Source of the DNA: Diprion similis
Lineage: Eukaryota > Arthropoda > Insecta > Hymenoptera > Diprionidae
DNA length: 64,000 nt
Direction of reading: 5' to 3'
Assembly: GCF_021155765.1 (NCBI RefSeq)
Contig: NC_060106.1
Span: 18,254,031-18,318,030 of the forward strand
Part shown: piece after piece, positions 3,601 to 49,569 of the stretch
How positions within the stretch are numbered: the first letter of the stretch is position 1
Layout of the letters: each line of letters starts with the position of its first letter
Made by a program: the position numbers and the translations under genes
The notes under the pieces: generated by a model
Seen by the model: only the letters and a program-made list of their open reading frames with translations
Told to the model about the DNA's origin: nothing
Database searches by the model: none

Positions 3601-6058
3601 CAGACGAGCCTCCATGCTCCTGTTAACAATTAGTCAATACAGCTTTATTGCAACTAAAATCAGAATAAAGTCTTAGAATAAACTAGCGATGAAAGAAAAA
3701 ATCGCGTATTCGTTACCTTTTCTCTCCCTCGCAATAGGAGTAATTAATAGCAAAGAAATATCCCATAAAAAATACTAACCGTTCATGACCTTGCGTCAGT
3801 TCAACTAAAACTGCTAAGCCGATTCTAGTTCTGTGCCGGCGATTCCGACTATCAGAATTATCATGTGAGCTATCAAATGGACAGTATTGTAGCCCAAACA
3901 AGTCTTCAGATTCTGATCGGCTCAGTGATGTTGAAATAGCTCGAAGCCACCTTCGTCGAAGACTAGATAAACTGCCAACACCTGATGAGCCGCTACTTTC
4001 CAACGACTGCGAGCCTGAATAATTTAGGTAAACATTAAACAAGAAGAATCTCTAGACAGTCTTGGCTTTCTTAAAAGTTAAGTAACGCCACAGTTTATGT
4101 TTCGATTATGAGATAGAAAAAGAATTGTAATAAAAAGTCAACAATTAACAGATGGTAGAATATGATTTAGATGAATTTAAGTGTTCAAACTTACTACCAC
4201 CAGCTGGTGGTGCAGCTGAAATATCGATATCCCAACTACTGCCAGTGCTGGAACTGGTGGAATTTTTTCTCAACTCTGGACTAAGCTGATTTCCATATGA
4301 ATTCAATAGGTTCGACTGAGATACTGAAACACGATTTTTAGATAGATGACAGCCATTCAGGTCAGTGCACAGTTTGGCCCTATTTCAAGGCATATTCAAG
4401 GGAGGGTTTCTATTTGAATACCAGAATTCAATAACTCACCAACACTTAACATACTTGAACTACCATTGCTACAATTAGCATCAATACTCATGGAATTGCC
4501 CAAAGTCTCACCAGAGTGCCTTTCACTGGAAGAGAATTACTGGTTTAGGCTTAAATTCGTTGAGAAAATTGGAAAGGTTTAGACCTTGAATACATACACC
4601 CTTATGGAGTTTGTTAACTTACTTCTGTTTGCAGGAGGTGTGCTCCGGTGCAGGAAAAATCTTGGCACACATGATTCGTCGAGGGGAATTCATAGCATGA
4701 ATCTGTAATAAATGATACGAATATGGTAGACCAGAAAACAAAGCCCACTTTTTCGGTTAAGTAAACAATTCAAGTACGATGCCATATGTGTACATAAATA
4801 AGAAGCTAATATTCCAAACAGTCTGTACAATTCTATTGAAAATGCTGTGCACATATAGGCTCAGCTGTGCTTATTGAAAACTGTGTAACTGAAAACTTGC
4901 GAATACTTTTTTGACTACTATTGACATTTTAGAACTATTGAATGATATGACTCATATCATATGAGTAAAGAATTTTCATTCTACAGTTCTGTTTATGTTC
5001 CAATTCATGAACTTCGTTTCTTGGTTCATTTATGCTAGCACGAACGTTAACCGCTTAAGATGAATTGACAAAGCCAATTTCTAGCTTGTCAGAAAAAAAA
5101 AGTTTCAAATCTTCACCTTGAAAGAAGGTCCTCTGTAAGTCATGGCAACAGAACCAAATACCATTTCTTTCAGGGATCCCACATCGTCACACTCCACCTT
5201 CTTGTACTAAAAAAACACATTACGAAATATGTTATTCTCTGAGGAAATTTATTTTAACGATCGAATGTCCAGTAAAACAGAGATCTAAACGATATTCATC
5301 AATCGTGGACTATATTTATAACTATCGATATCATAAACAAGGATTCGTTTAACTTGGTTGAATCTTGCAACTATTTTGTAATTAGTTATCACAGGTTCAA
5401 CAATAAATGAAACTTTATTACCAGGAAATATATTTACCTCGTAAACGAACTCATCGTCAATCTCTACGTAGATATCGTCTTTTTCTGTAACGAAATTCTT
5501 TGAAACTCCACATCGAAACTTAGCAGGAATTTTCTCGACGGATATCGAATCGAATAAAAGTTTCTGCTCGCCCCTGCGCTCACAGTCTCGAAATAATAAT
5601 ACTCTAATTTGGTCCTTTTGAAAGTATACAGATTTCCTGCAACAACGTAAACAATAAATATTATCAGTGTGAATAAAGTCAATCTCAAATACCTCAGACT
5701 TAATGTTAAGCAGCAGATGAATTAACGAAACATTCCAAGACAATATCGTCCGTTGTTTGATGAAGGTTAGGAGCGCGAGAAAAGTTCGTGCATGACAATT
5801 GGCGAAAACGCGATTCAGTGTAATATCCACTGTTCATAAATAAATAAATTGACATAGCGATAATTGAGCGCAGCAAACGTGAGGTGACATGCGATGGTCG
5901 ATATTCAAGTATGAAAGCATTGACAGGCAGGAATGAATGAATGAATGACGTGATTCTCACCTATCGCTGGCCCCGTTACTTTTATTCGCTGGTACAAAAT
6001 TATCAGCGTATTTATTAGACTCGTTTCTAGCTGAGAACAAATTCTTGAACAAAGGCAT
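667..6058 (-). CDS. FNIP: Folliculin-interacting protein (FNIP1/2 homologue), 12 exons
   Basis: The spliced reading frame is 1110 codons: 6058-5961, 5636-5438, 5206-5117, 4702-4623, 4525-4440, 4323-4195, 4014-3780, 3619-3305, 3210-3126, 2901-1565, 1483-1018, 879-667. All introns are GT-AG with matching phases. Vertebrate FNIP1 is about 1170 residues. Recognisable FNIP blocks, in order, are the N-terminal QIR..LFRDCERRG, then FGSVAMTYRGP followed by IHAMNSPRR (FNIP_N), then LVTAVLTHHLGWV and ETLAKRYPCNPLWAQLCDLY (FNIP_M). The C-terminal FNIP_C blocks are VVDQPISEALCIIADVDSW and a last exon ending in ATHSPIIARRFGLSLA. Family knowledge: FNIP is a longin/DENN-fold partner of folliculin. The complex is a GAP for RagC/D at lysosomes and binds AMPK. 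The long exon 10 carries the poorly conserved, Ser-rich middle region. The acceptor of exon 11 (1483) is the only one I find that keeps phase. The start is the first Met of the N-terminal exon, MPLFKNLFSARNE, which resembles vertebrate FNIP starts. Confidence 0.93.
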
Positions 6059-6947
6059 TATAGACTAAACTACGACTAGAGTTCCCACATTGTTCGAAAA
6101 ATTCTAATTCACGTCTTATCGTCGTCGTCACATGAAAAACTGCACCATACATATTCGCGAGATCTTGAGCCAACTGTAAATAAAGTCACGTGCTGAACAG
6201 TCATGTGATTGTGTGTTAGATAATTTGCTGCGTGAGTAACCATCTTCAGATAACTTGTGACGTTATCTTGTTGTGACGTTGGACTCGTAACGACATCTGG
6301 CGGCATATTTGAAAACTAACCCTCATCGATTTGGTTAATCAATGCCAGATGGCGGCAGTTTTGCATATCGAATCTTTCAACTCATGAGTTTCATTCGAAT
6401 TCGGTTAATTATACCTTCGAAATATCGGATCGATTGGTAGAATTGATGTTAAAAACATGAGTATTACTTAAAATATCGTTATGTAATTGTTCAAGGCCAG
6501 AATAGACATTTTATTACGGTTAGGCTAAAGTTTTATAATCCATAAATTAAACGACGTTCCGGGAACTGAGTTGAAGTCTTGCGAAGATCTCAAACTTCAA
6601 AACGACGCATTTTTATCGATCCAAAAGTTTTGAAACAAGAATAAATTCGAACAGTCAAAATTAATTTAGGAACGAAGGACAATTGAAATAAAACTTCAAA
6701 TACGAAGCTCGTCTACCATTCGAAAATATGAAACCTACAATCTCCGGTATTTGCCTATGACATAAAAATAAATATTATACTCGCAAAAATGCTGATTTAT
6801 TTGAATTTTTCTCCAATCGTAAACATGTTACAAAATACAAATTATCGAGATTTACAACACGAGCACCTGACTCTGCAATTTCGAGCGCAACGCGCAAACT
6901 GAGCGGCAATATGCGAGTGATTCGGATATTTTAAATAGCATCGGTGA
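6059..6947. other. Intergenic DNA between FNIP (5') and DNAJB13 (3')
   Basis: AT-rich. It should hold the FNIP promoter and 5' UTR (near 6059-6350, where there is a short run of CpG) and the DNAJB13 3' UTR. TTTATT at 6796-6801 is AATAAA on the minus strand, about 150 nt past the DNAJB13 stop, and is a credible poly(A) signal. No further gene seen. Confidence 0.5.
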
Positions 6948-9598
6948 TCACGGGTTGCAGATAGCTCTGAGTTGTCGTTTCTCATCGTCATCCGACTCTC
7001 TGCGTAAGGGAATGTCCGAATCGACGTTTCTCCGGAGTTTATCGGCCAAAATAAGTCGCTGAATGTACTCCGTATCACCCTTCTCACCGCCAGCTGACGA
7101 CACTCTAAATGCCTTCTTGACGTAATTCTTACTAGAATTCGGCATGTAGGCGGGAAACTCGATGTTGAATCGTATTATCAGGTCGCCCCTTTCCTTCGGG
7201 TTTTCCACCAACGGCAATCCCTCACCGATCACAACTTTTTCGTAATCTGGCCTTGTATGAATTAAAACGTCTTAACAGTCAAAGATTATTCGGCTTTCCA
7301 CATCCACTGAGACACCCTTTTTCCTCGTAGTGTAATTTCATTTCAACGAAAAATATTTCAGAGATAAGATGTGGGCTTGATTTTTACCCTCATATATTAT
7401 TTATTATTAGAACTGTTCACGTGTTGGGAAAAAATAGAGAAACGTGCTCCGTGAGACCTTCGGCGCGATCGAATCGATGTACATACTATTTCATGATAGA
7501 TTTTTCTATAAGCAAAACAATCTCGGAGTTTTATACAAAAGGAAATGCCTCAGTTCACCTGGAAAGCTGTGAGAACCTTGAGGACGAGCGTAATTAGTTC
7601 TTGCCGATGAGATAATTAATTAGAGCCCACCGCCCCGCCCCCCGAAGCACTCTAAAAGCAGTAATTTGACGAACCATTAGACGCAGGGCTGAGGGTGCAG
7701 GAAAGAATTCTACGCAAGGAATATTGCACTCGCCAGAGGAGGAATATATGTTTATGCACCAATACCGAGGTGCTTCGTGTCGAAGAAATAAAGGTGTGGC
7801 CCGCTTACGAGACGACGGAAGTGATGGGCACCCGCAGAATCCTCTCGTCGATTGTGTTGACCGTGACGAGGAAGCCAGTTAGGGCTTCGCGGAGAAAGAC
7901 ATCAACGACCATGACGAGATTGGAACCATCTCTGACGAAGGTGTCGTGCGGTCGGTCCTCGGTTATGAAGATGATGTCGGCTGGGAAAGAAGTAAAAAAA
8001 AGTCGGGCAATTTCACCCGCGTTTAGGCTTCATCGAACGATGGAAATTCGGGGTGAACGAAGGGAGGGGAAGGCAGAATCGAACTGCATTGTTCTGCGGT
8101 TTAAACGGGAAACGAACCGACTGCGAAACGTTGCTGAATCGCTGATTAACCCCCTTCAACCGACCCTCGGCCACCCGGTGAGATACGTAACGAATCGATA
8201 TCGCCAATCTACCGGGTATTTTCGTAGGACCTTGGTCACCCTCTTCAGGAAACAGGATCTCCGTCCCCGAGGGAAGCCCCGGTTTTATCGGGATGGTCAG
8301 AATTTTCTCCCTCGGGACCGTCGTCGACTTACTGTCCCCCGATAGGACTAATCTCTGGATCTTCATTTTCTTCACTCCTCCGAAGAATATCTGAAATACG
8401 TACATACAGTCGAACTACCGATCCGTTCGATTCGTAGGCTCTTACAGATGTTCGCTTCTTGCATTTGAATCAGGGTTCTCAAAAAAGACGGTGCACTTGG
8501 TCGAAAATCTGCTACCGCTTTGTACTTTTTTATTTTTTTTTTTGCTAGAGTCTAACGAAGACTTAGTACCTAAGTTCAAATAATTTTTCTTAGACTCTTG
8601 AAGAGTCGTCGAAGTGTAACGAAGAACGTGAAAGACATTCTACGTGCATCCTTCTTCAGCTTTGTCGTTGTATATACAAATGAAGCTACCAATCAACTAC
8701 CGGCAAATGAAATAGATAATTAATAGGGGGGGAAAAACCTCATTCAAAGTAAGTAAAAGGGGTTTAATGAGCGGCTCCTCCTTGCGCTTGATTCCTCTTC
8801 CTTCGGGCAACTCGTAGAGCGGTAAAGGATTGGCGAGAACGTCAAGGAGGTCGGCGTACGGACTGGAAGTGCCGAAAAAATCCCTGGGCGCGAAAAAAAA
8901 ATCAATACGGTGTACCCACGCGAAAGGGGAAGGGGGGAGGGGGAGGTTTGTATCGGCATGATGTAGAATGCGGGAAATTTTAACCTGTAGGTCCTGAGGG
9001 GATCTCCGTGGAAAACGTAAGGCTGGATGTAGTCTTGGGGGCCGGGAACCCCCCTCTTCAATCCCTCCTCGCCGTACTGATCGTAGATTGCTCTTTTGAA
9101 CGGATCTGAAAGTACATCGTAAGCCTCGGCGATCAGGCTGAAGACCGCTTGAACGCCCTCGTCTCTTTGTCTTTCGGGATTATAATGAATTGCCAATCTC
9201 CGAAACCTTGATCAATAATTTTGAGGTGGTATCAAGGTGCTATAAGCGATTTCTTTGAACATCCGGATGAACGAGATATTTTTTTTCTCATGCATTTTTG
9301 TACGGGTATGTATGTAGTACGTGTGAAAAGAGAAAAAATTTACTATATACTATTCTCATAGCTTAAAATATCTTCGGCAGCTTGGAAGGTATTTTATAAT
9401 TTCCGAGAAGAGGTTTAGCAGCGTTCTTGGACGAGCTTCTTTTAATTTTCAAAAACACTACTATCTTGGTTGAATGGAAAAATTTTTATTTCAATTTCAA
9501 TCCCGTAAATTAATCGAAAAGCTATCTTACGCCTTTTTTATCTCTAAATCGGTGGAATTTTTCTTCAACGACAAAACGCCGTAGTAGTCTATTCCCAT
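6948..9598 (-). CDS. DNAJB13: DNAJB13-type J-domain protein (axonemal/radial-spoke class), 6 exons
   Basis: Exons 9598-9531, 9206-8985, 8883-8739, 8390-8213, 7980-7809 and 7251-6948 give 362 residues; human DNAJB13 is 316. The J-domain is residues 1-75, starting MGIDYYGVLS, with AEAYDVLSDPFKRAIYDQYG typical of the family. Class-B C-terminal beta domains follow: FFGGVKKMKIQRLVL, EKILTIPIKPGLPSGTEI, then FPEEGDQGPTKIPADIIF and GEGLPLVENPKERGDLIIRF. The pattern matches DNAJB13 closely, which in vertebrates is a radial-spoke component of motile cilia and sperm flagella. The HPD signature that stimulates Hsp70 reads NPE here (residues 32-34); the human orthologue has HPL. The C-terminus runs about 50 residues past the usual end and is charged (K/R/D/E). 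The gene lies head-to-head with the HMG-box gene, start codons 564 bp apart. Function in sperm or cilia is inferred from the family. Confidence 0.92.
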
Positions 9599-10162: not shown

Positions 10163-13100
10163 ATGGAAAGATACGGTCTTATCACCAGCATCATGGGAAG
10201 AGGTAAGAAGAAGGCTTTCCGTTAACCCCGATTTTATCGCTCTGCCATTTTTCACCCGAGGAAAAGTGGTTGCGTGATCTGTAAAAATTGGCGAAAAAAA
10301 AAGATTGAAAATTTAATCAAATCCGCAAGGCACGTCGAGCGCGATAAAACCTCTTCGATTCACACTCTCCTTCGTCAACCAATATAATTATCCGACTTCG
10401 CAGCTGCGGGGAAAGAAAATTCACCCCCGGAAAATGGCCTGCAACAGCGGGGAAAATCCTCCTCGTCGCTGTTACACCCGCTGCAAGAATGCAGTCCGAC
10501 GAGACCGACGACGACGGATCAGCTCGTGAGTATCCTCGAGGAAGATGGCGGACCCGATGGTCCTTCGAGCAGGAAACCGATTTGCCTAGAATCGAAGCCG
10601 CCCCGACGACGAGAGTCAACCGCCATCGGAAACATCCTCCAGGTCCACCTGCAACGCGGAGGAGGAATCGGCGCGAAATACGGAGGCGTCGGAAGTTCCG
10701 CTGGAAAACAGAAGATACCGAGACCCGCCAACGCCTTCATGCTCTTCGCTAACGAGTGGCGGAAAAAATTGGCCATACAAAACCCCAGGGAGTCCAACAA
10801 GGACATCAGTGTCAGGTTAGTACGAAGTATGTACAGTATACCGCATTGTTGGCGAGGCTGACTGTTGTTGCCGCTTCAGCGCATTCGTGCGATACAATGT
10901 TGCGCGGTATTCAGTCCGAGTTATTTTATTCGCCCTTGTTTTGCAAAGATTGCGCGAATTGACGGGTGGACATTTTGTTTGAACATTTTTTTTTTTTTAG
11001 ATCTCCATCATCCAGGAACGTGTTTTCAAAACTATTATTAAAAAAGTTTTACATTTTTCAATGAGACGCAATTTTCTTTTTCAAATCTCTTATAATTGTT
11101 CAGAACTCAAGAAAATCATTTAGATTTCGATTCGAAATCTCTTTGAATCGCTTGAAATCGCAAGTCACTATTTATGTGAAGCGATTTCTAGGAAATCGGT
11201 AAAAATCACTTAAAATCGTTTAGAATTCGATTCGAGGTGTCTTTGAATCGCCTGAAATCGTTCCTTCGCTTCTTGAAATCGCAAGTTACTATTTATGTGA
11301 AGGGATTCCTAAGAAATCGGTAAAAATCACTTGAAATCGTTTAGAATTCGATTCGAGGTCTCTTTAAATCGCCTGAAATCATTCCTTCGCTTCTTGAAAT
11401 CGCAAGTTACTATTTATGTGAAGCGATTCCTAGAAAATCGGTTAAAAATCACTTAAAATCGTTAAAAACCAAAGGAAAATCGTTTAGAATTCAATTGGAA
11501 ATCTGTTTAAATCGCCTGAAATCGCTTAAAATCACGGTGAAGGTTGCTCAAAATCAGTGAATACCTTCGAAACTGAAATTATTTGAAATCGGCTGAAATC
11601 GCATAAAACTGAGTGAAATCATTAAAAATTTGCAAATATCGCTTGTCACCCAATGATCTGCGAGTGAATAGATCCTCGACTTTCAATAAGACAAAGAATT
11701 CTTCAAACGAAAGATTATATCTTTTTTTCTAAAGACGTCGCGACGTCGATACTGGAACAAATTGCACATTGTAATAACCGCAGCTGCAATCTTGAGGTGT
11801 CCGTGGCTCTACTTTGTACGAGTGTAACAATGGCCGTGGAGTCTGTAGATATCTATGTAGCTCTATTGTTGGGTGACTTGAAGAGATGAGCAATTAATCC
11901 CCTCGAGCGGGAATATAATTGCTCCCGATGTCTTCGCCGAGTCCTTTCAGACTTCTCATTTCAGATTTACCTCCGATGCGAATATTCCGGACGGGCTCTG
12001 ACTCGCGGAATCTTAGGAGTCGTATTCGATGGTACCTATTATTGTACGGTTGGCATTTACACGCTGGTTAATGACGCACGAAGCATACCTTCGGGTAGCT
12101 TTGATCGCTCGTGTGACAACGATTCAACTAGTTTACTCGACATTCAATTGATCGGACTGTATCAATGGAGTGAATCGATCTAATCAGTAGAGTTAAATTA
12201 ATTCACCGGAACTAGATTTACCATTAACTCAAGCATTAATTTGGTATACCATCAGGATTAGCGAGGACACTGATTTTCAACGTTGCACGATAGAGTCGAA
12301 AGGTAAAAGCTGAAGATGATTTGCAATAACTGTGATCGTTCGATATTGTAATCACAGATTTCTGAATAAATTTCGTAGGCATGCTGGACAATTTTATCCC
12401 TCTTCCGCCTCTATGCAACGAGAATTTCTTATCGCGTTCCGGCCGCGTCCGCAAAGATCAATCCACACTGAAGATAACGCGGCGATACGTGCGATCAACC
12501 ACCCTAAAACTTGTTAAAAATAGAAGCTAAACGATCGCGTTCAGAGTGCCGAAGTGCAGAGTTGAACTCAGCTGTCATGCAAGGGGAAAAATGCATTTTT
12601 TATCACCTTTCCTCGAAGTGCATGAAAATTGTGCCAAAAAATTCTCTGCATTTTTCGCCCCTTGAAAAATAATCGCGTGTAATTTTGGTCAACGAATGGT
12701 CTTTTGAAATCCGCTCGATCGCGAGCTGAAAGAAAGGGAATCGAAGTACCCACTGAGTCTTACCATCCGGGTGAAAAATCGGCATTGAATGCTCGCTGCT
12801 GAAATCAGTTTCTCGGCTAATCACGCCGATGATTATGCTTAGGAATAAAGCCTGAAAAAATGTGTTCAAAGCAGAGATTGATTTTTCGTAAGCCCCTCTG
12901 CAGCAGAGGTGCGCTATACGCATCTCCTTAGGCTTCCGCTTCCGGTTTCCTTGAGTAACCGGAAAAAATGCCGTACAAGTCACTCGATTTCATAGCCCAC
13001 TTGACAATTTTTTAATTATCGGAATTTTTTCTTTTTTTTTAGGGCGGGGGGGGGGGGTGTTAAACTTTATTCCGAGTCAATGTGCTCAATATTTTTCACC

Positions 13101-15173
13101 CATTTTTAAAAAGAGAAAATTTCAAGTATACCGAAAGTCAGATGCAGGGTATGGAGGTAGTGAAGTATATATATTGGTACGAGTGACAAGGAAATGAAAA
13201 AAGTTTTTTCCACGGACCCGAGCGTGAAGGCAATAATAACAACGATGGCAATCAACGGATGTTTGAATTTATAGGTTGGGCGTCTTGTGGAAGAACATGG
13301 CCAAGGGAATCAAGGAGAAGTATTTCGCCCTGGCGCGGGAAGTCGATGCGGAGCACAAGCGGAAGTATCCCGGTGAGAAATTGCGCGCTTACCAAACTAT
13401 AACAAAAAATGTATATAATCATACCTACAATATTATACAATATCTTACAAGTTCGAGTAACGATTGTCGAGCTTTCACAGTGCCATTTATGTTCGTAAAT
13501 TATAATTCGCAGTATATACAGAGTGAATGCGAAGTAAAAAATTTTTCAAAATCGACATTTGAACAGTTTTCACCCGATCAAACATTTGTTCGTACAAATT
13601 TCAAGCGATTAAGTCGCGTGCCTAAGCCTGAAATTGACTTCTTTGACGAAAGGAATAATCAAAAATGGACGTAAGCCCCCGAGGTGATAATATTTTCCAC
13701 TTCGTATTGGAATATGACAAATACACTGAGCAGGAAATTAGGATTTCACCCAGCTGTGCACAGTTTGAAAGGAAATAAAAAAATTCATGGGTTAGGTACA
13801 TACACTATAGGGTTACCATTAAAAAAAGAAGTGAAAAAAAAAAAAAAAAAATTTGAAACCGGAAGAAAATCGATCAAAGCTATGATACACGCAATGCTTG
13901 TTGAAAATTGAATATCTCAAATATTTTTAGTGAATAGTGGAAGAGTCAACGTAATACAAACGTATATACTGTACACGTCGAGTGTGTATAATACAGATAC
14001 AAGGTACACATAGGATACAGGCATTATATACTGTAGAGATCAGAAACAACGGTTGTGAGAAAGGGTGTTGCGCAAGGGTGTGAGAACGAGGTAAAAAAAA
14101 GTCTTTACACAGCTACAACACCGACTCCGTAAGCGAAAAAACAAAAGTTGAAAAAAAGAGAAAAACCAAAATGTAGAAAAGGAAAAAAACGGATCAAAAC
14201 CATAAATAAAAGAAAAAAAAAAGAAAACAGAAAGAAAAACGTAAAACACAGAACAACGACCGTCCAGCAACGGTGAAAAAAAAACCACACCGTAAAATCA
14301 ATGAGATAAAACCGAAACTAAAAACGAAAAAAGGGTTATCGATTTTTTTAGTCGACACATGGACGAGTCGACGCGAGGCGTTAGACGCGATCGCGACCAT
14401 CACCCCCCGTACTGCAGACGCGTTCCTCATATACCTATGTATGATGTACGTGCACATGTCCATCCGCATCCACACATCCACACACACACACACATATATG
14501 CAAAGAGTCCTCCGTCGATCTGGTGGTGATCCGTCTCGCCTAACGTAACGATGATCTGGTGGTGAGGGAACGGTGGGGATGCGAAACGAGTGGAAAAGGT
14601 GAGGACGGAAGAAGAAAAAGGGTAGGGTGAGGGTGAGGGTGATGGTGAGGGGGTAGTGCGGAGGGTGTCGGATCGAAGTGCATGGCATAAGGCAACAGAG
14701 ACGTCAGACCCTCCTAGGCACTAGGTAGAAACACACACACACACAAACACACACACAGTCAGAACGTCAGAGAGGCGGTAGGACAGGGGCGAGTTCGACG
14801 AGGTGAGGACTTCCCCGGAGGGTAGGTGAGGTCGCGGCGCAGCGTTGTAGGGAGGGAGGAAGAGCGAGAGAGAGAGAGAGCGAGAGAGTGAGAGAGAGGG
14901 AAAGAGGGAGAGGGAGAGAAGGGCAGGTGCACATCGACGTGGATAAACCGAGCGTGTAGGTGTGCGCGAACGTGGGCCGAGTGGTGCGGAGGTGGAAGAG
15001 GGAAGAGGGAAGAGGGAAGAGGGAAGAGGGCGACGGTCGAAGGTATTGATTGCGTCGCGGCGTCCCGGCGTCGCGGTTTTAAGGCCGCAACACGACGAAA
15101 CGTGCGCCGACATCGTCGTCACCTAGATTATATACGGGGTGTTCCCTGCAGTACAGTATAGTATACATACCTA

Positions 15174-15220
<47 letters not shown>

Positions 15221-18200
15221 GCGTAATGTATATAAACGTAGGTAAAAATTGATTTTAATTAGTATCACTTGAATATTTCTACTTATACACAAATTAGTAT
15301 ATATTGTATTTATCACGCGTTAACGAGTATAATAATAATAATAATGATAATAACACAGTGATGTTGGATATAATTTTCCTTTCTATCACCTACATGTATA
15401 CTGTATTATACATATGTATAATAGAAAATCAACGACAACAACGGTAGCAGCTGGTTGTTATATTATCTTCTCGAACACTTGCGGCGCGTGCTTCGACGAC
15501 GACGACGACGACGACAAATATATATATATACGCGTTTGTGTTTGTATACATACATATGCATACATATATCTATATTGTATATTGTATATTGTATGCATAT
15601 ATACATACACACACACACATATATATGTATATATATATATACCGTTAGAATAATCTCTCTCGCGTGGCCCGCATGCCGTGTGCTTCGAATTCCCCGTCTA
15701 TCCGACGGAGTGCAGCGGCAGGTAATTAGGTATAAGATACATGCATGCATGCATACTTTGTATACCGTGTACGCAGCGTGTCGTTGCGTGGAGCTCGCAG
15801 GTTCAACGCACATCTGTTATTACGGACGGCTTCGGCCCGTCTAATCGGGTCCGTTCCGAGGAGTCGACGAGGCAACGTACGCAACGGGGAGTATAGCTGG
15901 GTAATAACGGGGAAGAGCCGAAAGCTCGACGGTGTCGCGGCAAGGCCGCCGGCGCAGTAGCCGTAGAATTCGTCGTCAGGGACGCCGCGGTCTCGACGTC
16001 GACCCGACGACTCGCGGGGAACACGCAGTCCGATCCCGCCAGCCCGCGCCCCCGAGTCGAAGGGGACGAAGGGACGCTCCTCGGTTCCTCGGCGCGAAAA
16101 CGCGATGACACCGCATCCGCGTGGCGGTCAGGGGATGACGACTACTTCTGTTGCTGCTGCTGCTGCTGCTGCTGCTTCTTCTTCTTCTTCTTCTTCTTCT
16201 TCTTCTTCTTCTTCTTCCGCCTCTTCTTATTATTATTCTTCATCTTCTTATTCTGAATTGCTCCTATTCTTCTACTTCTACTTCTACTTCGGAGGATCGT
16301 GCGGAATGACGGATTGATAAATAGACGGACAGACGGAGAGAGAGAAAGAGAGAAGGAGAGAGGAAGGGGTGGAGAGGTGGCGCTTTGCGGAAACGGGGAA
16401 GGGCGGAGTTAACCTGCTGCACTTTTTGTCGAGGTGCGATCGCGAAGAAATCCGCGCGCGCGTTTATTGACGGGCTGCTTTATCACCTGCACGCGGGGCA
16501 TCGACGAGCGGAAAACCAGTCGGGATAATTCAAGTTCTTCGACCCTGTTTATTGTTGTTGGTCTTTTTTCGTCGCTGTTGCTCTGTTTTATAATAATTAA
16601 CCTGGTGCAGCGGGAACGGTGATAGTTTTTTTTTTATAGAGGAACTGATATTCGGATTTGCCCTGTTACTTGGATCATGGATGGATGAGGCCTCGATTCG
16701 AAAGTGGTTTTCCGTCAAGAGGAAACGGAAGAAGAGGATGAAAAAAACTGCCTCGATTATCGCCGTACGCACGGGCGTTAACACAGATCGTATAACCTGA
16801 CCGAGGAATTATTGTTATAAAAGAAAAACGCGTTACGCAGATATATACACGTGTAAAAAAAACTGTACAAACGTGTAACAGAGCACCGAGCAATTTTATC
16901 CGAAAATTGAATTATACCATCCCTATATTTATATATAATATATACATATATGGGATATATGTCTTTAAGAAGAAGTAATAATAACAACAACAACAACAAT
17001 AATAATAAAGTTCGTGCGAAAATCGTGTCCAAGTTTTGAAAACACGATGCAGAGGATATTTGTTCGGATTGAGGAGTATGATCGTTTAAATAACGATGAA
17101 TTCTGCAGTGACGAACATTTGACCGACCAACACCCAGAAGAACAATCAACTCCACTCAGACGAATAACAATCGAGTTAAATTTTAACCATTATCGTTACA
17201 CCGGGTGTCGACGCTTAAATACACCTGATTCATATTCCATGTGACTCGTGAGCAGCTAATTGCGCCACAGCGATGCATTACACCTGTTAATTTCGCAGTC
17301 GTCGTTTGAAGGATCGTTTTAAACGGACATTATAGACGGCGGCGAGCTTAAAAAGGCAAAGCTTCCCGCCAAGTAGTTGACCGGTTTTTTGGTCTTCCTT
17401 GTAAAATATGTATGTATACACGTATACGTATACAGTTTTTAGTTTTTTTTTATTTTGGCTAGACTGCTCCGTTTTAAGTAAGAGCGAGTGATAAGAGGCA
17501 AAGAAATCTCTGCGAAGAGGAAAAGTGCGAGAATTAAGGATGAAAACAGAGTGAAGTTAATTTAAAATTTCAAATACGAGAATACATCCGCGCGCTGTTT
17601 TTTGTTTCGGTGAAATTTTAGAAATCGAAGGAGAAATATTGAGTTTGTGATACAGCCGCGTATCTCGTATACACGTGTAATACGGTTTTTTAAAATTGGA
17701 TAAACAAAATATATATAATTAAGCGGTAGTATACACAAAAACAAAAAGAAAAAAAGAAAAAAAAAAAGAAAAGGATATACACTTTGGTCTTCCCTTAAAG
17801 AGTTACGAATACATTATATAAATACATACGTGCATGACCGAGAATATATATGAGCAAGTGTTTGAAAGAAGAGAAGAGAAGAGAAGAGAGGAAGTGAAAA
17901 AAACAAAGTAAATAATTGAGAAAAGATATTTAAGTACATTGCAACGTGTTGAAAAGTGGCCAACGTTATAACTCTTCCATGATAAATTATAGAGAAAAAG
18001 AAACAAATTAACCCTAATGAATGTCTAAAAGTATATATATGATATAATAATCCAAAGTAAATCAAAGTGAAGAAGAAGAAGAAAGAAGAACAAAAAAAGA
18101 AAAACGAAAAGAAACAAATTTTAATAAATGTTTTTAAAACGCGTAGAGAATAAAACTTTTTCGTCGTTTTCTTCGAATATATAAAAGTTTGAAGATAAAA

Positions 18201-21200
18201 GAAAATTGTTACACACATATAATTGGTCTAAATTATTGAATATAAAATCAGAATACAATATATGTATACATAATATATATATATATATATATCTATGCCC
18301 TGTGCTAATAAAATAAGGGAAAGGAAATAGTGACGTTAAGAAGCGATAAGCTAAAGAAAGGAAAGAAAAAAAGAAAAAATGAAAGAAAAAAGAATCGCCT
18401 CGACCGCAGTAAATCAAAATCATTTTACACGCCAAGCTTTTTGCTCTGTGCACGTATAATATATATTGCAATATACATATTACAATTATATACGTATAGA
18501 TGCGTGTAGTGCAGAGAAGGTGGTAAAAAATGGATTGCTGCAACTACGTGCAGCCGTACAACAGTGGCACCGGACACTTTTACCATCAACAAAATCATTT
18601 TTATTATGAAAATATGAACGCGTACGCGTCCTACAGCGGCAGCATGACTCCGGGATCGAATGCGATCGAAACAAACGTCCGATACAATCGACTACCACCT
18701 GCATATCCGACAGGTAGATGAGACCCGTTCCGTTCGTTTCACCTATGATCGTACATAACTTCCAGCACACACACACACACATACGCAAACACTGACACAC
18801 ACACTGACTATTGGTAGTGTAGCCTGCACTCGCTTTACACCCGCACGACGAAAATATTCCGCAGTGCACATTCCGCACTGCACTTATACACTATCATCAT
18901 CCGTAGGTATAACGTCAGACGCACGTGCGACTGCGGTAGTCCGACAGGGTCGTCAGACGCCTGGAAAACTTGGAAAACCTGGAAATGTTATGGGGTTTTT
19001 AATTTGTTAATGGAAAAAGTTGAGAACATCAGTTTTCTATCCTTGGAATTAGAAATTATATTTTTTTTACATAAGAAGTTTACTCTTTTTCGTAGCTTAA
19101 ACTGACTCTTTTTTTATAGATTGTATTTTTCTTTAATTTAAATTGAATTTCAACCGAATATAGACTTCGCAAAATGAACGATTGTGCCAAGAAAAACCTG
19201 TAAATGTCAGGGAATTATAAATGATTTGTGTTTATTTTTCTTTTCTTCTTTTTCTTACGTCACAAGTTAACTTTTTTTCGTTGCAAAAACTCTAGATTAT
19301 ACTCATACTAAATTTCAACCGAATATAGAGTTCAAAAGCTGAACGATTCAGGTTTCAGTCACTTACTATAGATCTGGGAAAGTGGCAGGGAAAATCTGGA
19401 AATCTTGTGAAATTTTTTTACCCTCGAACATTCGTTGCCACCCTGGTCCCCTAGTGCGGTTCATATTCGCCTTACGGTATGTCTTCGTACACCTGTTCGT
19501 CCGTGCCATTTTCTGCGTGGGTGTTGGTGGGTCTGCAGGCTGACAAACACTCGCTCAGCTGGCTGCAGCGTAACAACGCTGCCGCACGATCCATACACCT
19601 TCGATCCATACCGCCCCATCTCGACGCCGCAAACCCTTATCTTCGCCGTTGACCCAGACGTCGGAAATTTATTCTTTCTCCTTCCATTTGCCCCGGCAGA
19701 AGTTATCGCGAACTCAGCTGCTTGCGCGGATGCGGAAGTTTCAAATTCCTTCACATGACACTCTTCTTCTCTCATTTTTTGTTCGATGCGTATTACAGGG
19801 TGTCCAGTATTCATAGAAATTATATAGGAAATCATGCAATTCTCAGGGAATTTCTTGTCGTATCTCTGGAATATATTCATTTTCATCCTAAGTTAAAAAA
19901 AAATTAACCATTTGGTGAGAAAGAAAATTTTTTTTCATTAATTGTTTATAAGTAACGATTCTTGTTTGGAAAAGCTGGAAATTCTCAGGGAATTACGTTT
20001 TCACAGATAACTGGACACTCTGTATTAACAGATTACGTTCATTGATATCTCTTGTATACCCGCAGTCTGAATTCCTCCTCGTCGTAAATTTGCTATTGTT
20101 GAAATTTAGCGCTTTGGGAATTGTTGAACTTTGAAACTTTTCACCACTCTGCAGGCTGGAAACTCTTTTTCAACTTTGTACCAAACTTACGATTAAATTT
20201 TACGTTTATTATACACACTTGTTGGATTTGCCACTTATTCTGCAATGCTATGCGCACTTTTTTCTACTTTCAAAAGACTCGGATAACCACCGGGCTCTAC
20301 GATTTCATACCAAATTTATCAGACTTTCGACAAACAGAGTCAGAGCCGTATTAAATAATGCGAGAAAGCTTCATCACCCGTGACATCGCGGCTATCCAAT
20401 TATCGTTATATCCATTATTGACCCACTGCAACGCGTCTCTGGGTTTCTACCCGATATGTTGAACGTGCTAGCAGCAACGATACTCTGGTAAAATTATTTG
20501 CCGTAGAAGATTCGCAGCTGAACATCGTCTTCATGTTCTGCTGCACGAAATAAGTTTTATTTAATCATCGATAAAAAAACCTTCCAAATAGGTATATAAG
20601 ATATGCAATTGATCCATCTCGATCCTTGGACAAATCAGCTTATCGACGACCGCAGATTTCATGTGAAAAAGGGTAGAATGGTATAATGGTGGCAAAACAC
20701 CGTTGAACGAAGGAGAAATACTACCGAGCAAATTCAGTCGTGAATCGTAAGCGGAAGTATTATACGAGACACGTGACACTCACTTTGCCAATAATACCCT
20801 GACGCCTGTCCAGCTCGGTATAGTCGAAGAACGAATATCCCCGAAGCATGTCGATAAGTTCCAATGGTCAAAGGACACGGCAAGGTCGTGGCGGGCTATT
20901 TTAGCTCGAAGCCCTAACGACTTCCGGTTTGTGGACCCCTAGCGTCGAATGCCTTGTTGCGAAAATGCATGCATAGGTTGCATGAAAATGAGTTATTGAA
21001 ACTAAAATTGAGTATAAATAATATTCTCCGGTTTTCAGATTACGTTTACAACCCAAAAGAGGCGAGGCTGCGAAAGGCGATGAGGGAGCAAAGCAGGGAG
21101 CTTTCGCGGCAGTCGATTCTTCAGACGGCGATAGCCTCGGCAGCTTCCTCGAGTGGAAACGGATCGGGGAGCGGAGCCGTGACGTCTTCGAGTTTCCCGA

Positions 21201-24200
21201 ACCACCCCCTGAGCTGTTCTTCGTCCTCTACGGGAGGGACGGTCTCGCCCCTGCAGAACGGCAGCCCGTCGGTGAATTCCGGGCGTATTATCAACCCCTG
21301 GTTCCCCGTCGGCCCTGCCTCCTCCTCGGCGCATTTAAAACCCATTATCTCGCCGAGGGTGGGTACTCGATAGAATTACCAACCCCGGCATAAATTTCCT
21401 CGGCAAAACGTTGCGTCACGGAGCTTTAATTCTAAAACCGCTGAAACGACGACGACGACGACGTGTTGACTTTCACTTGAATCCGATCCCCGGAACGCGT
21501 TTTGTATCACCGCCACTCCAGAAGCGGAAGCAGAATATATATATTATATATTTACTTTTTTGTTTTTTGTTAATAATCACACTTTTAATAGTTGTAAGAA
21601 GAGGCAATAAGACATCTGTTAGAATTTGAGCCCTTAATGTTAAATTTTGTTTGGTTCCTGAACGCAGTTTTCCATTTTGCATTTAATTATACACATTTCT
21701 AAATCTTGTAGCTCAGTAACGAGGCAATGTATGAAAATTGCGTTCAGGAACCACTAAATACTAATATTAAGGGCTGAAATTTATAACATTACCGTCTTAT
21801 TTCCTATTCCTCCAAAAATCAGACACGTGACTTTGAAAAAGTAGCCGATTTTTTTGGACCACCGTAATATATATGTATATACTTCTTCTCTCTCCCGGTC
21901 CATTTCTCAGCTCTGATTACAGATTCAAAAGTAAGAAGGGTCAATATTTCGAAATTTGAATTTTTCAAAAATCTAGACTTGAGTTTAAAATCCCGATATA
22001 TCGACCCTTCGGAACATCAACCTTTCAAAAAATCCCCCCCCCCCCCCCCCCCTCCCTCCCACGCGTCTATCTTTTACGCGTCGCCGTTCTCTCCGTATCC
22101 ATACATAAACGATCCCAAGGACCCAGCTCATCGTCACTTCTCGACGTTTCCAGATGATGGCAGCCCACCAACGGACCCTGGAGAAGACCAAGGAGGCCAT
22201 GAGAAAGCAGGTGGAATGCTCGGCGTCCGGCGTCTTCTCCTCCGGAGGAGCGGCCAACCCCTCGTCGGGGTCGGGGTACCCCGGAGAATTCGGGGGTCAC
22301 AATTCCCCCACTACTAGTGCCAACGATTACTGCATCATCGCCGAGTTCGGAGAGGGCCAGAAGTGGCATCCTTATCAGGTGAGTCCGGAGGCTCGGGACT
22401 CGGTGCGATAACCGCGAGTCACTTCGAGTTACTTCGAGTCAACGGCGTAGTGATTTCGAAGGAAAACACGACCGAGTCATATCAGGTACAATAATGGCGG
22501 AATACTAGTTCAGAAATTTTGAGAATACTCGCAAGGATCGTGCCATTTTTCTGGACCGATTCCTCCCGGTGTCCGGAAAACCGGCAATCGAAAATTCTGG
22601 GGAACTTGAGTTCCGAGACAACGATCCAACGCGATTCCCTCGAATCGAGTCGCCATTTTTAACTCCACCACCGCGCATGGGACGAATTTCGCGTCGATCC
22701 AATGACTCCTATTATTTTAGCCGGCTTTCTCTCACTCTCCATGGCAGTCTCCAGTGGGAGGAAGACACGCTCGACCATCCTTAAAATTCAATATCGTGGT
22801 CACGGAACGAGAACTGTATATCGATTTAATTTTCAAACGCGCTGGACTAGATTTGTCCGCCATAGAGAAAGGCGATAACGTGTACTTTTCGACATTTTTT
22901 CTCCTCCTCTCTTTTTCTCTATCTTTTTTCTCTTTTTCTTTCCAAGGATTCGCATGCGGCTAAAAATCGGTTCGTCGATCACTTATTTCGGCGTAGCGCG
23001 TTTCGTTCTTCCTTATTGTTTTCGTCGTAATTACTCTTCAAATCCTCATCTAATCCGCAGTCTTCTGAGAATCGACTCAAATCGTCCTCATGGAATTCTC
23101 ATTTGTCTCTCGGTTTGCGCCACTCGTTATAATTGCTGGGTCATAAATGCAACGGTACTGCCTCTTAGTCTTCTTACAAGTCGACATAACATCGGATAAG
23201 ATCATGATATTTCGGAAGCTCCACGTGTCAAAAGTTACGAGACGACGACGTCGAGCACACAAGTACAGTCTATGTACCAATTATACCTACCCATATGAAC
23301 TGACCGAAAAGCGTTATGTACTACGTATTACGTATCACCACAAGGTATGTATTTGAGGCTGTAAATTCCCTAACGGTTTTAAAATATATGCCCGACTATG
23401 ACGCCGCCGTCCATTTCTTCTCGAAATATACACACGGCAGCCATTTAGACACTCCACTCGTGTGTACACTCACTATTTACTGTTCGTCATGTGGAGATGG
23501 ATCACGTGCCAGATGTATGCCTTTATGCACAGGACACAGTTATTGCTCCCATCATCGATACACATTAAAACCGTACTTCTCAAACCATGAAATACGAATA
23601 TGTAATACGAATTCACTCTGAGGTTCTCCGAGGAAGTAAATCCTTCCAACTCGAAGCACAATCAGTGGTTTGAGTCGAGGTTCAGGATTTTGTCGATAAA
23701 TATCGGGTAGAGGTAAAAAAAAAAACAGGATCGCTGATCAACGGAAGGACCAAAATATCGAATTTTTATAGACGCAAAAATCTTATTCAAAGGATATAAA
23801 AATGTGGGTAGTTCAAGTAGAGAAAATATGAAACATGGAAAGTCGAAATATATAAAGATCAAGACATGGAACAGCCAAATCGAGAATCTGTATACGATTC
23901 TATATTATCGAGAAGAATTCTGACGATTCTATAACGTCTTGGTATTCTATGATCTGCTCTTTTCAATCTTGGACTTCTCTTCTACACGTAAATTTTTAAA
24001 GTCAAGTTAAAAAAAAAAAATCTACTCGCGTAAAGCACCGATTTTCTAAACGACGACGTATACACACACACGGCGTATAATCTATAGTCCTGCGATGAGA
24101 AATGGTGGCTGAACTGTGGTTTGTCTGTTCCAAGAACGGAGGGAATCCTTATCACGGTCGAGGAGCCGCGATGCCAAAGGTGGGCCTACATCCGAACGCA

Positions 24201-26476
24201 AACGTTCACGGACCTTGGGCACAATTCTGTGGACTCCCTCTGCGTAAGTATGCAGTATGGAATGCACTGTACATGTGACTGACACACATGAATAAGTATT
24301 TTATTAGAGTTCTGCAGCTGGATAGAAGTCAACATCCGTCCCGTGTTGTACCTACACGATACACGCGTGACGTATGAACTGGTAACAATAAAAAATAAAA
24401 ATTAAAAAAAAATCTCAAAAAGCTCCTCAATAGTATTATATGCAATAAAATAAAGTCGAAATTACGAGGGATATATTAACGCCTATTATTGCAGAGACAT
24501 CGGCCGTTCAGAACCCGGTTATACGGCCATCGAGACAGATGGTTTTCCTCCAAGACCAACAGAGTCAGCACTGCAACGCCTTTTCCGACGAAATGCAGAT
24601 GTCCTACGTCCAGGCCAAAATGGAACCCAATCACAGGCTGCACCTAGCGTATTCAGGCCAAAGGGATCCTCAGGTAGACCTAGAATCGAGTGCCACGTAG
24701 AGCATTCGCGTTTACCATTATAGTAGGTAAGGGTGGGGGTTAGAAACTGGAATTTTCGATTGACGGAAGGACCAGAATATCGAATTTTTAGAATGTGGAA
24801 AGTTCGAGTACAGAAAATTGAAAAAATAGTAAGTCGCGAAGCACAGAAAGAGACAGACAACAAAATCGAAAATCTGTGTACGATTCTATATTATCGAGAA
24901 GAATTCCAACGATTCTACACTTTGGTATTCCATGTTTGGAATTCGTCTGATCTTTTACTTCTCCATACTTCGATTCAGACTATTTTTAAATTCTTCGCAC
25001 CAACAAGAAACATCGGTTTGATGTCTCGCTTTGATTTCGTTGAGACTCTTGCATGTTGTAGAACATTGAAAACTAAGAGACACGTATTTTTTTTTTTTTT
25101 TTTGCCTGCGAAGAAACGATTCAGAGGAATAAAAATGGCCCCCAAAGATGGACACCCAACGAGGTGATTTTTTGATCTGCTTGATGGATTTGAATGAAAC
25201 TAACGCTGAAGTTTTCCTATTCATTAAAAAAAAATTTCAGTGTTTGTTTCATTCAAACACGTGAAGCGCGTCAAGAAATCACCCCGTTGAGTGCCCATCC
25301 TTGGGGGTCGTTTTCACCCCTTCAAACCATTTTCCCGCAGATAAAAAAAAATACGTATCTCTTAGTTTTTAATATTCTATTCAACATACATGAGTCTCAA
25401 CGAAACCAGAAAGGGACATCAAACTGACGTTCCTTCTAAGTTTCTCTTTTTCAAAAATCCAACATTCCGGCCCTTCGTTTTTTCCATTTTTCTACCCTCC
25501 CACCTCCACGCCATTAAACGTTCCACCTCGATTGAGGCTTGATAAAATTGTCCACGCATAAGCCTGAAACAAGACACAATATACTAAAAATTAGAAAAAA
25601 TAGTTAATTCTCAAATCATTGACACAAAAATCGTTAATAATTCGCATCAGGTAAAAGCTTCCGTATCACCGCCGCAAATACAGCAGCAACAGCATCAACA
25701 GCATCATCATCATCAGCAGCAGCTCCAGCACGAGGAGTCGAAATGCGGCGAAGCATCCCAGGGTTGGGATTCCGAGTCGACGGCGGGATCCTCTGGGGTA
25801 ACCGGTGTGCCGAATATGATCCAGGATCAGGGTGCTCAGGATCAGGAAGAGGAGGGTGGTCAGCAGGTCAGCGAGATCCAGGAGGAGCCGACGAGACAAA
25901 AGCCGAGCAGCAACAAGCAGCCGCTTCCAGGTTTCCACCAGGCGTTCGGCTCGACGGAAATCGGCCGTTTCTCGAGGTCCGAATTCTTCGCGAACATGGT
26001 CGGCGACAGCAGCAACGTAAGTAGCACCAGAGGTAATCATCCTCGGCAGGTTTCCCTTGACTGCGATTTGAAAAGCACCGCGACCGGCCGACCGTCGCCC
26101 GCTTTTTTCAACTCGCAACAATCGAATCAGCAAACCGTCGGCGTCGTCACGTGCAACGGCCCGGGGGTCAGCAGCTTCGGTAATATCAATAACTTCGGTA
26201 ACGTCGCGCTTGCCGCCTATTACAACGACATACGAAGCCCCGCGACTCCCGTCGTCGCGAACCCTCGCTGGCACAGCCCTTACGTTGGCGTTATAGGTAG
26301 CGAAATTTAACCGCCATTATGTACATTATGAATAGGTACGCCATAATTATATATCCGTATATTATATACATGTATATATACATATATACACATCTATATA
26401 TATAGTATATAATTATTCCAAATGTTATATGAAATTCGCAAATTATTCCAATTGTTATATGAAATTCGTATATTAC

Positions 26477-46895: not shown

Positions 46896-49303
46896 TCATC
46901 CGAACCAATGACTTCCCATACAGTCTCTCGTCCATTCAGTCTGACAAACCCAGCACCACTGGAAACTGCAGCCAGCTCTTGTACAAACCATGTGCATACA
47001 GCCACCTACCAATCATTATCGTTCCTCAATCTCAATACTTTATTATCATTTCCGTATTCAAATTATAGCAAATATGTTGGGCAAGCGACTTGAAAACTCT
47101 TAATGGAGAAAGACTGAAAGATGTACGTGAGTACGCTTACCGTCTCGTTCGGTCGGCGTTCTACATTTCGGGCATGGTTTCGTCGATATTTGAATGGTCT
47201 TCTTACTCGCTTCGTCCCACTTGGCCTGGAAATTTTTTCAATCTCAGATTATCTGTTGTTTATCGATTCAAACAAGTGAATAAAAATAGTGTTACTTACC
47301 TCGCTAGCTCGGAGAGGATCAATTGCATAGCCTGAAGGACAAGAGACGGCGGAGGTAGAAGAATACGATGTGGGCTGTTGTGAGTCGCATTCACCTACAT
47401 GGAAACCTTGCAGGCATCGGCGACAGAAAACATACTAGGGGAAAAAACTGAATTATAGTGGTTGTCCGGTAGTGAGTAAAAGCCAGATGTACTCGAGTGC
47501 TGGTAACAGTTTTCTGACATACTCCGCAACCACCGATACATTGAATTCTCCGACAGTCGTCCTCATCCGGTGATCGACTACGCTCCTCATCAGTCTGATC
47601 AGGTGGAATAATTCCCATTCCACAATCTGGCCGTGGGCACAGAAGCCCTCCTGCCCTTAAAACGTATTCCTCAGTTCCGAATCGTTGGTATTGCTCATAC
47701 TGTAATTTAAATTGCATTCATTCATTAGTAATCCAATGATGTTGATCGGATGAGTGTGGCAGTGAAGGTAGAAGCAGCCGATGATTTTAGATACCACTGT
47801 ACCTGCTGGGGTGAGAGAAGACGGAAGTGATGAACTTCGGATATGTGCGAATTTTGGCAACCAGCAGGACATGGCAAGGTATAGTATCCGTGGTTATCTT
47901 CAAACTCAAACTGACGATCCCGCAGACGAGCGACGCAATAGTCTCGAAAGCAGTCGAGGCAGGTCACATGTCCAGCCTCGCAAGGGAAAACCAGTACCGT
48001 GTCCCTGAAAGGCATTAACAAAGCTTGTGTTAATTCTTCCTAGGTTTATTTCTAGACTATTGATTCATGTATGAAATCAAAGCTTTACCTCGTATCAGTG
48101 CAAGCCAGACAAGGTACATTTCTCAGATTTGGTTTGATCAAATAAAGCGGTACCGCCTCATCTTTTTCTCCAAGACTCGCGTGATTGGCGCACTTGAAAT
48201 AAAACTGCGCATATCTCACTTGAGGAGTACCTTCATCCTTCTGTGCTAAGGAAGACAGCAACGTCTGACAATCGTCATTCTCACAATGTACAGTTATTCT
48301 ATGAGGCTGCTGTACATCAGGCCAACATTGAGGATCTCGATCCACCGTCACAGCCCCGCTGCCACATGTCGCGCATCTAACTCTCAGCTTTCCTGCCTCC
48401 ACTGATTTACATGGCAGCGAACAGTAAACGTAAAAATGGGCACGGGCTTGTTGCTGCTCTGTAAAATCATTACAATTAATCGAGTTGACAGGAATTTTCA
48501 CCAAATTCAAAACAGTATTGTGAAAATAATTCCAACTTAAAAACACTGCAGTGTAGTTAAGTAAACATATACTGACTCCATTTGCTTATTTTTCTGTTCT
48601 GTTCAACAAGAAATCTACTACTCAAAAATTCTATTCTCAAGACTTTGATATTACAACAGTGACTGAAACAGGGAAAACAAAAAGTATGAATACCCTGCTC
48701 GATGTGATTTTCCTGACGATCAGAGTCGTCCAATGGTAAGTCGATCAAAGTTTCGTTCAGAGGTTTGCTTCCACTTTCATTTGCTTCCGATCCTTCATCT
48801 AAAGATTCTTCGATAAGATTTTGGGTATCCTTTTTTCTATTAAGGCGGTTTTTTCCAGGGGGAAGTTTTATGGCATGCAAAATACTTTGTTGACCAAGAT
48901 CGCATTCCTAGACAACAGATAAAAATATTCATGTTTCAAGTTAGAATTGAGGTTAGGTTAAGTAGATGAACACGATTGTTGATGACTAAGGTTTGTACAG
49001 TAATAAAACGATAGTTTACAGCTGACTGATCGATTCTTCACATACCTCTATTATAGTGGAATTGTGCAACTCTTTACCAGCGAATATGATCTTGATATCT
49101 TCGGGAGATATGCCAAGCTGAGGCCCGACGATCTCTTTTAGGTTTCTGATGTCCCATTTCGGATCCAAATCAATGGAGAGTGTATTTCCCGTGTTAGTTT
49201 TCACGTAGATACTCAACGAGTTCGATATCTTTCGTTTTCCAAACCAAATCAACTGCAACATTCTCAAAAAGGCACCCTTTAGAAGGTTGAACAAAAAACT
49301 CAT
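46896..49303 (-). CDS. park: E3 ubiquitin ligase parkin, 8 exons, complete
   Basis: Exons 49303-49046, 48907-48694, 48458-48089, 48004-47803, 47699-47523, 47434-47300, 47225-47141 and 47005-46896 encode 516 residues. The UBL domain is residues about 29-105 ([37 protein letters not shown]). RING0 follows ([10 protein letters not shown] to [10 protein letters not shown]), then RING1 ([18 protein letters not shown]), the in-between-RING ([31 protein letters not shown]) and RING2 ([19 protein letters not shown] to CMGSHWFG). The catalytic RING2 cysteine is Cys483, in GGCMHM. Ser94 in the UBL corresponds to the PINK1 phosphosite (human Ser65, fly Ser94). The roughly 28-residue extension before the UBL is fly-like. 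Role: RBR-type ligase activated by PINK1 on damaged mitochondria, marking them for mitophagy. Nothing is broken or missing. The boundary of exon 3 (48458) may be off by one base. Confidence 0.97.
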
Positions 49304-49569
49304 CACACAGAGTGTAAATATCGAAGCAGTTCTGTGTATAATTTTCCTTTACGATAACACCAACTGTTATCGCGATAAATGTAGAGAAGAAAATGTATGC
49401 GTGTAAAAGCGTATTTTCTGCGTGAAATACGTATATTTTACCGTCGTTTGAAATTTTTCAACTTTCAAAAAATCATTTCGAACAATTCGAACCCAGATTA
49501 GGTGCGCGATATAGGTATTTTAGTCAGACACAGAGTGCAGCACTTAACTGTCGAAGCTGATAAAGAGTG

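Follow-up and report, generated by a model that had tools for sequence, protein, structure and literature searches.

The balance of the sequence evidence tips towards a real alternative first exon at 18530–18713 on the plus strand, in the third intron of an HMG-box gene, which would give rise to an isoform without the HMG box. The window, i.e. the whole 64-kb stretch of DNA that was analysed, comes from contig C2, one of the 60 contigs that make up a 269-Mb genome. The candidate exon, delineated by frame, donor, codon, and residue scans, begins with an ATG at 18530 in an A-rich start context (AAAAAATGG), is preceded two codons upstream by an in-frame TAA (18524–18526), and comprises 61 codons, rich in Tyr and Asn, plus 1 nt. 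It ends in the donor CAG/GTAGAT (ACAG/gtagatgag), which departs from the consensus A at +4 and the consensus G at +5. A sequence-only reading of this DNA had described a 61-residue exon with its own ATG and a stop just upstream, a donor in the phase needed to join the exon at 21039, a product that retains the basic tail and the C-terminal part but not the HMG box, and a CpG-rich block at 15660–16110. These observations were confirmed, and its interpretation, an HMG-less version of the protein made from an internal start exon, is partly supported.

The host gene was rebuilt on the plus strand as an eight-exon coding model of 2043 nt (including the stop) that encodes 680 aa without internal stops; all seven introns are GT-AG, and their phases are consistent. 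The putative first coding exon of the full-length form (10163–10202; MERYGLITSIMGR), a 40-nt exon placed by frame and donor only, is the least certain exon of the model. The next two exons, supported by the gene model, Pfam, and genome comparison, encode the N-terminal region with the first half of the HMG box (10404–10815) and the second half of the box (13275–13372), the latter ending in a phase-1 donor, CCG/GTGAGA. The first exon shared by both forms (21039–21358; acceptor cggttttcag, donor GAGG/gtgggt) starts with the residues after HMG helix 3 (DYVYNPKEARLRKAMR...), the end of which we take to lie just before DYVYNPKEARLRKAMR; this exon is placed by the model and is colinear with a paralogue in the same genome (L021; see below). 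The remaining shared exons of the gene model are located at 22154–22378, 24135–24243, 24495–24673, and 25651–26310, the last of which contains the stop. If read on beyond its donor, the frame of exon 13275–13372 meets a stop only after another 100 codons (13275–13674), and retention of the intron after 13372 would thus yield a protein that ends beyond the HMG box.

The HMG box was identified by Pfam (PF00505) at residues 118–185, with an E value of 1.7e-18 and a score of 67.2 bits vs a cut-off of 25.4. One criterion for the Sox family, as given in the available text of its source, is the motif RPMNAFMVW (PMC2386450), in place of which the host protein carries RPANAFMLF. Another, likewise taken from the available text, is an HMG box at least 50% similar to that of SRY (PMC3004900); the host box is identical to SRY at 29 of 76 positions, a hand count on the 1j47 alignment that gives identity, not similarity. 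The first 289 residues after the HMG box match only the host gene in its own genome (4 matches). A text search of the literature for three peptides of the host gene found none of them, and a search for work on HMG-less isoforms and Hymenoptera yielded nothing on this gene, going by titles and abstract openings.

Two neighbouring loci were also noted. A DnaJ gene (8744–9598, minus strand; ATG at 9598), for which the top three PDB sequence hits are all DNAJB13 (lowest E value, 6.9e-27), lies head to head with the HMG gene, and their ATGs are separated by 565 bases. DNAJB13 is a sperm-flagellum protein; because of this and the head-to-head layout, the full-length HMG form and the DNAJB13-type gene may have a common testis-active start region. 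Farther downstream, exons at 47391–49348 on the minus strand, with ubiquitin-like and RING parts, are by eye presumably those of a parkin-like gene.

The acceptor and phase at 21039 are well supported, because the SRY alignment runs straight across the 13372–21039 junction (KYPNYKY in SRY vs KYPDYVY) and the KYP/DY junction of the paralogue, located on contig C11, is uninterrupted (KYPGYYYSPKEARLRK). An alternative start that joins this acceptor would therefore need a phase-1 first exon. The candidate exon has this phase: it is 184 nt long, the exons from 10163 to 13372 sum to 550 nt, and each of the two sets leaves 1 nt and ends in G, and the joined codon is Asp at both the 13372–21039 and the 18713–21039 junctions. 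The resulting internal-start model is 1677 nt long and encodes 558 aa with no internal stop. In this gene model, residues 1–183 of the full form are replaced, which removes the HMG box except for the last two positions matched by Pfam, and DYVYNPKEARLRKAMR, the basic tail, and everything after them are retained; the predicted product thus corresponds to an HMG-less isoform in the sense that the box is wholly or mostly absent and the rest of the protein is kept.

The paralogue L021 is the closest HMG match outside the window, sharing 57% identity over query residues 28–88. At about 5560–7882 of locus L021, on its minus strand, a BTB domain (PF00651, E 1.1e-28) is followed by an HMG box (PF00505, E 5.9e-18), and the two probably belong to one gene because their order and strand fit. 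The tail of L021 is similar to that of the host (KYPGYYYSPKEARLRK in L021 vs KYPDYVYNPKEARLRK in the host), whereas the BTB domain and the uninterrupted KYP/DY junction distinguish it from the host. The own-genome search gave no match of the internal-exon peptide in L021, and neither the host gene nor the BTB-HMG gene was found in the literature searched.

The main alternative, that 18530–18713 is a chance open frame in a long intron, is possible and keeps appreciable weight. The frame is short, and a phase match would occur in one case in three. A scan of intron 3 (7,666 nt) speaks against chance: the candidate exon was the only phase-1 case of at least 90 nt with a donor score of at least 2. 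In the control (125,243 nt from 18 loci, both strands, with ORFs of at least 100 aa masked), three ATG frames of any phase, one of them in phase 1, combined a length of 184 nt or more with a donor no weaker than that of the candidate. These 3 and 1 events correspond to 0.09 and 0.03 cases expected by chance in the sense strand of the intron, in a post hoc test whose threshold was taken from the observed exon itself. The donor, off consensus at +4 and +5, is a point in favour of chance; on a scale of approximate donor frequencies not derived from this genome, it scores 3.25, above two and below five of the gene's seven other donors, which range from 0.85 to 8.57.

Coding statistics leave room for the chance origin as well. 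The codon score of the candidate exon is modest (0.104 vs 0.197 to 0.336 in seven exons of the host gene); it is the highest among the six frames of the exon, and 4 of 95 noncoding ATG frames attain it, as do 32 of 557 stop-free windows. For synonymous codons the score is 0.073, a value reached by 2 of the 95 ATG frames and 16 of the 557 windows, and one reverse frame of the exon, which contains seven stops, scores higher (0.078). The codon score is a weak method here: of 12 stretches in neighbouring genes presumed to be exons, 6 fall below zero. It was trained on 4070 codons (at most 600 per stretch), with the L003 ORF and a MADF stretch lacking a single open frame excluded, and the gene labels of the training stretches are our assumption. 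The period-3 signal of the exon is no better than that of noncoding DNA (reached by 296 of 1220 windows), and six of the seven other host exons show more.

The residue make-up of the peptide is extreme and speaks against chance. Y and N together account for 0.279 of the residues, a share that no non-overlapping ATG window attains (93 masked and 241 unmasked; highest value, 0.246), and K, I, L, F, V, and W together for 0.098, which is as low in 0 of the 93 masked and 1 of the 241 unmasked windows; both residue sets were picked after the peptide was known. These non-overlapping counts supersede those from overlapping unmasked windows (n = 312), of which none reached the Y+N value and two were as low in K, I, L, F, V, and W. 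Throughout, L001, L002, and L021 were excluded from the controls for codon, chance-scan, residue, purine, and splice-site-grade counts; ORFs of at least 100 aa were masked in the codon and chance-scan controls and in one residue arm and left unmasked in the purine and splice-site-grade controls. Taken together, these tests provide some support, mostly post hoc, for the candidate exon beyond chance.

In accord with the chance origin, the candidate peptide had no relative among PDB sequences, Pfam, NCBIfam, and the viral and prokaryote genome contigs searched; PDB and Pfam include some insect proteins, but the contig collections are viral or prokaryotic and NCBIfam is prokaryotic, so that this result has little bearing on conservation. 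The exon occurs at one place only in its own 269-Mb genome in a DNA search that skips simple repeats, and a repeat origin was ruled out by this single occurrence, with the same proviso for simple repeats. Own-genome searches for an mRNA retrocopy showing the 18713–21039 junction revealed none.

The purine bias upstream of the exon also argues against an open frame arising by chance. The proposed leader adjoining the exon (17463–18529, plus strand), identified by purine and splice-site scans, has a purine content of 0.634 overall and 0.531 in its last 130 nt. The most purine-biased segment near the exon (17476–18394; purine, 0.66) scores 176 vs a maximum of 73 in 100 permutations, a lenient control because permutation breaks up simple repeats. 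The sense-strand bias before the exon was matched by none of 828 windows of 800 nt from 18 C1 loci on either strand, and at 100-nt steps across the 64-kb window only two places were as purine-biased, both in intron 3; the part of the intron after the exon is not purine-rich (0.470). The segment starts 13 nt after an acceptor-like ggctag at 17462, of a grade that occurs 0.49 times per kb-strand. A second purine segment, at 13767–15043, is the strongest in the intron (0.67 over 1277 nt; score, 288), consists partly of simple repeats, and is not explained by the candidate exon.

The CpG-rich block, which the sequence-only reading had proposed as a possible promoter, is real: with 65 CpG and a GC content of 0.62, 15660–16110 (plus strand) is richer in CpG than any other 450-nt stretch of the window and is a promoter candidate. 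When 450-nt windows were moved in 50-nt steps over the 64 kb, the best one started at 15701 and contained 64 CpG, and the next separate place contained 58. From 15.0 to 18.7 kb, CAG/GTAATT at 15721, within the block, is the only donor-like site scoring at least 3.5. An unspliced leader from 15660 would contain 32 ATGs before 18530; 12 lie downstream of 17463 and one downstream of the Inr-like site at 18422. With the block as promoter, a leader spliced from 15721 to the acceptor at 17462 would seem more likely than an unspliced one. One consistent model thus has a start near the CpG block, splicing from 15721 to 17463, and a 1067-nt second leader exon before the ATG, and the 12 upstream ATGs of such a leader would lower translation. 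It is also possible that transcription starts nearer the exon at 18422, the one Inr-like site in 13400–18530, which is accompanied by neither TATA nor DPE. A search of 18001–18540 for an acceptor immediately in front of the ATG turned up only a weak one, at 18499. The many upstream ATGs, the Inr-like site lacking TATA and DPE, and the want of a strong acceptor at the ATG count against the candidate exon, as do the paralogue, in which this intron is missing, and the second purine segment. ATGs are slightly depleted in 16300–18529 (26 vs 42.0 expected; sd, 5.9); because other noncoding stretches are likewise below expectation, this depletion was set aside and carries no weight in our case.

A further alternative is a real internal transcript in which 18530–18713 is leader or is joined otherwise, e.g. 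with an exon from the CpG block spliced straight to 21039 and an ATG of the shared exons serving as start codon. The HMG box would then be missing as well, and so would the MDCC head. The donor-like CAG/GTAATT within the CpG block, the purine blocks, which suggest a transcribed leader, and the many upstream ATGs are all in line with this alternative, but it leaves the open frame, its residues, and its phase-matched donor unaccounted for, and we regard it as improbable. That the exon is part of an unrelated small gene or noncoding RNA, for which the 7.7-kb intron with its own CpG block would offer room, is very unlikely, given that the exon has no Rfam match at gathering score and no family match and that its phase fits the host gene.

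In the reading that we favour, i.e. an alternative first exon at 18530–18713, the upstream start would make the 680-aa HMG-box protein, and a second RNA would come from a promoter within the third intron (7.7 kb), which may be the CpG-rich block near 15.7 kb. The purine-rich leader of this RNA would run into the candidate exon, which would then be spliced to 21039. In the 558-aa product, the HMG box would be swapped for a 61-residue Tyr/Asn-rich head, with the basic tail and C-terminal part kept, and the protein should be unable to bind or bend DNA via an HMG box. Because the tail and C-terminal part are kept, the 558-aa form could hold the same partners as the full-length factor and might compete for them, either damping that factor or acting as a separate cofactor. 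Transcription, splicing, and translation of the internal form, like its competing role, are predictions from the gene model. A wider proposal, which we put forward tentatively and consider doubtful as a whole, is that this gene encodes a non-Sox, BTB-HMG-related insect factor in which an internal CpG-rich promoter yields a second protein with a Tyr/Asn-rich head in place of the DNA-binding box, so that one locus would supply both a factor and its antagonist or cofactor, and the full-length form may be linked to the start region common with the DNAJB13-type sperm gene.

If the isoform is real, the removal of one exon would allow a form that binds DNA to be compared with one that does not, since the exon boundary coincides with the end of the HMG box. 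Truncated forms of this kind are known from vertebrate Sox genes, including that for Sox17, a SoxF protein. In the available text of one report, mouse truncated Sox17 (t-Sox17) consists of residues 129–419 and is used as an inert control (PMC2682659). The candidate isoform, as a gene model, resembles t-Sox17 in that the HMG box is absent or mostly so and the rest of the protein is kept. In contrast, that text describes no new coding head for t-Sox17, whereas the candidate would gain one of 61 residues, and the host of t-Sox17 is Sox17, whereas the present host lacks the Sox motif. By analogy, the use of t-Sox17 as an inert control speaks for a non-binding form and not for competition. The entire HMG box is also missing from isoform IV of Nile tilapia Sox30, for which, in the available text, a dominant negative role was left open as a possibility (PMC3004900). 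This isoform is likewise HMG-less, but it is described as a product of splicing in a gonadal Sox gene and has lost the nuclear localization signal too, and the same text describes no internal coding first exon. Among insects, alternative starts are described in the available text as having given regulators new roles, with alternative-promoter isoforms of pangolin/Tcf and odd-paired in flies, and panish of Chironomus, as examples (PMC6783274). According to that text, Panish is similar to Pangolin in the cysteine clamp only and is encoded by a separate duplicate gene, unlike the candidate isoform, and the maternal forms differ by only 20 and 7 residues (PMC6783274), whereas the candidate would swap the whole HMG box. 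Given comparable isoforms such as t-Sox17 and tilapia Sox30 isoform IV, the form proposed here, if real, would not be a new kind of mechanism; it would be a naturally occurring isoform without the HMG box, furnished with a promoter and head of its own, from an insect HMG gene that does not belong to the Sox motif class.
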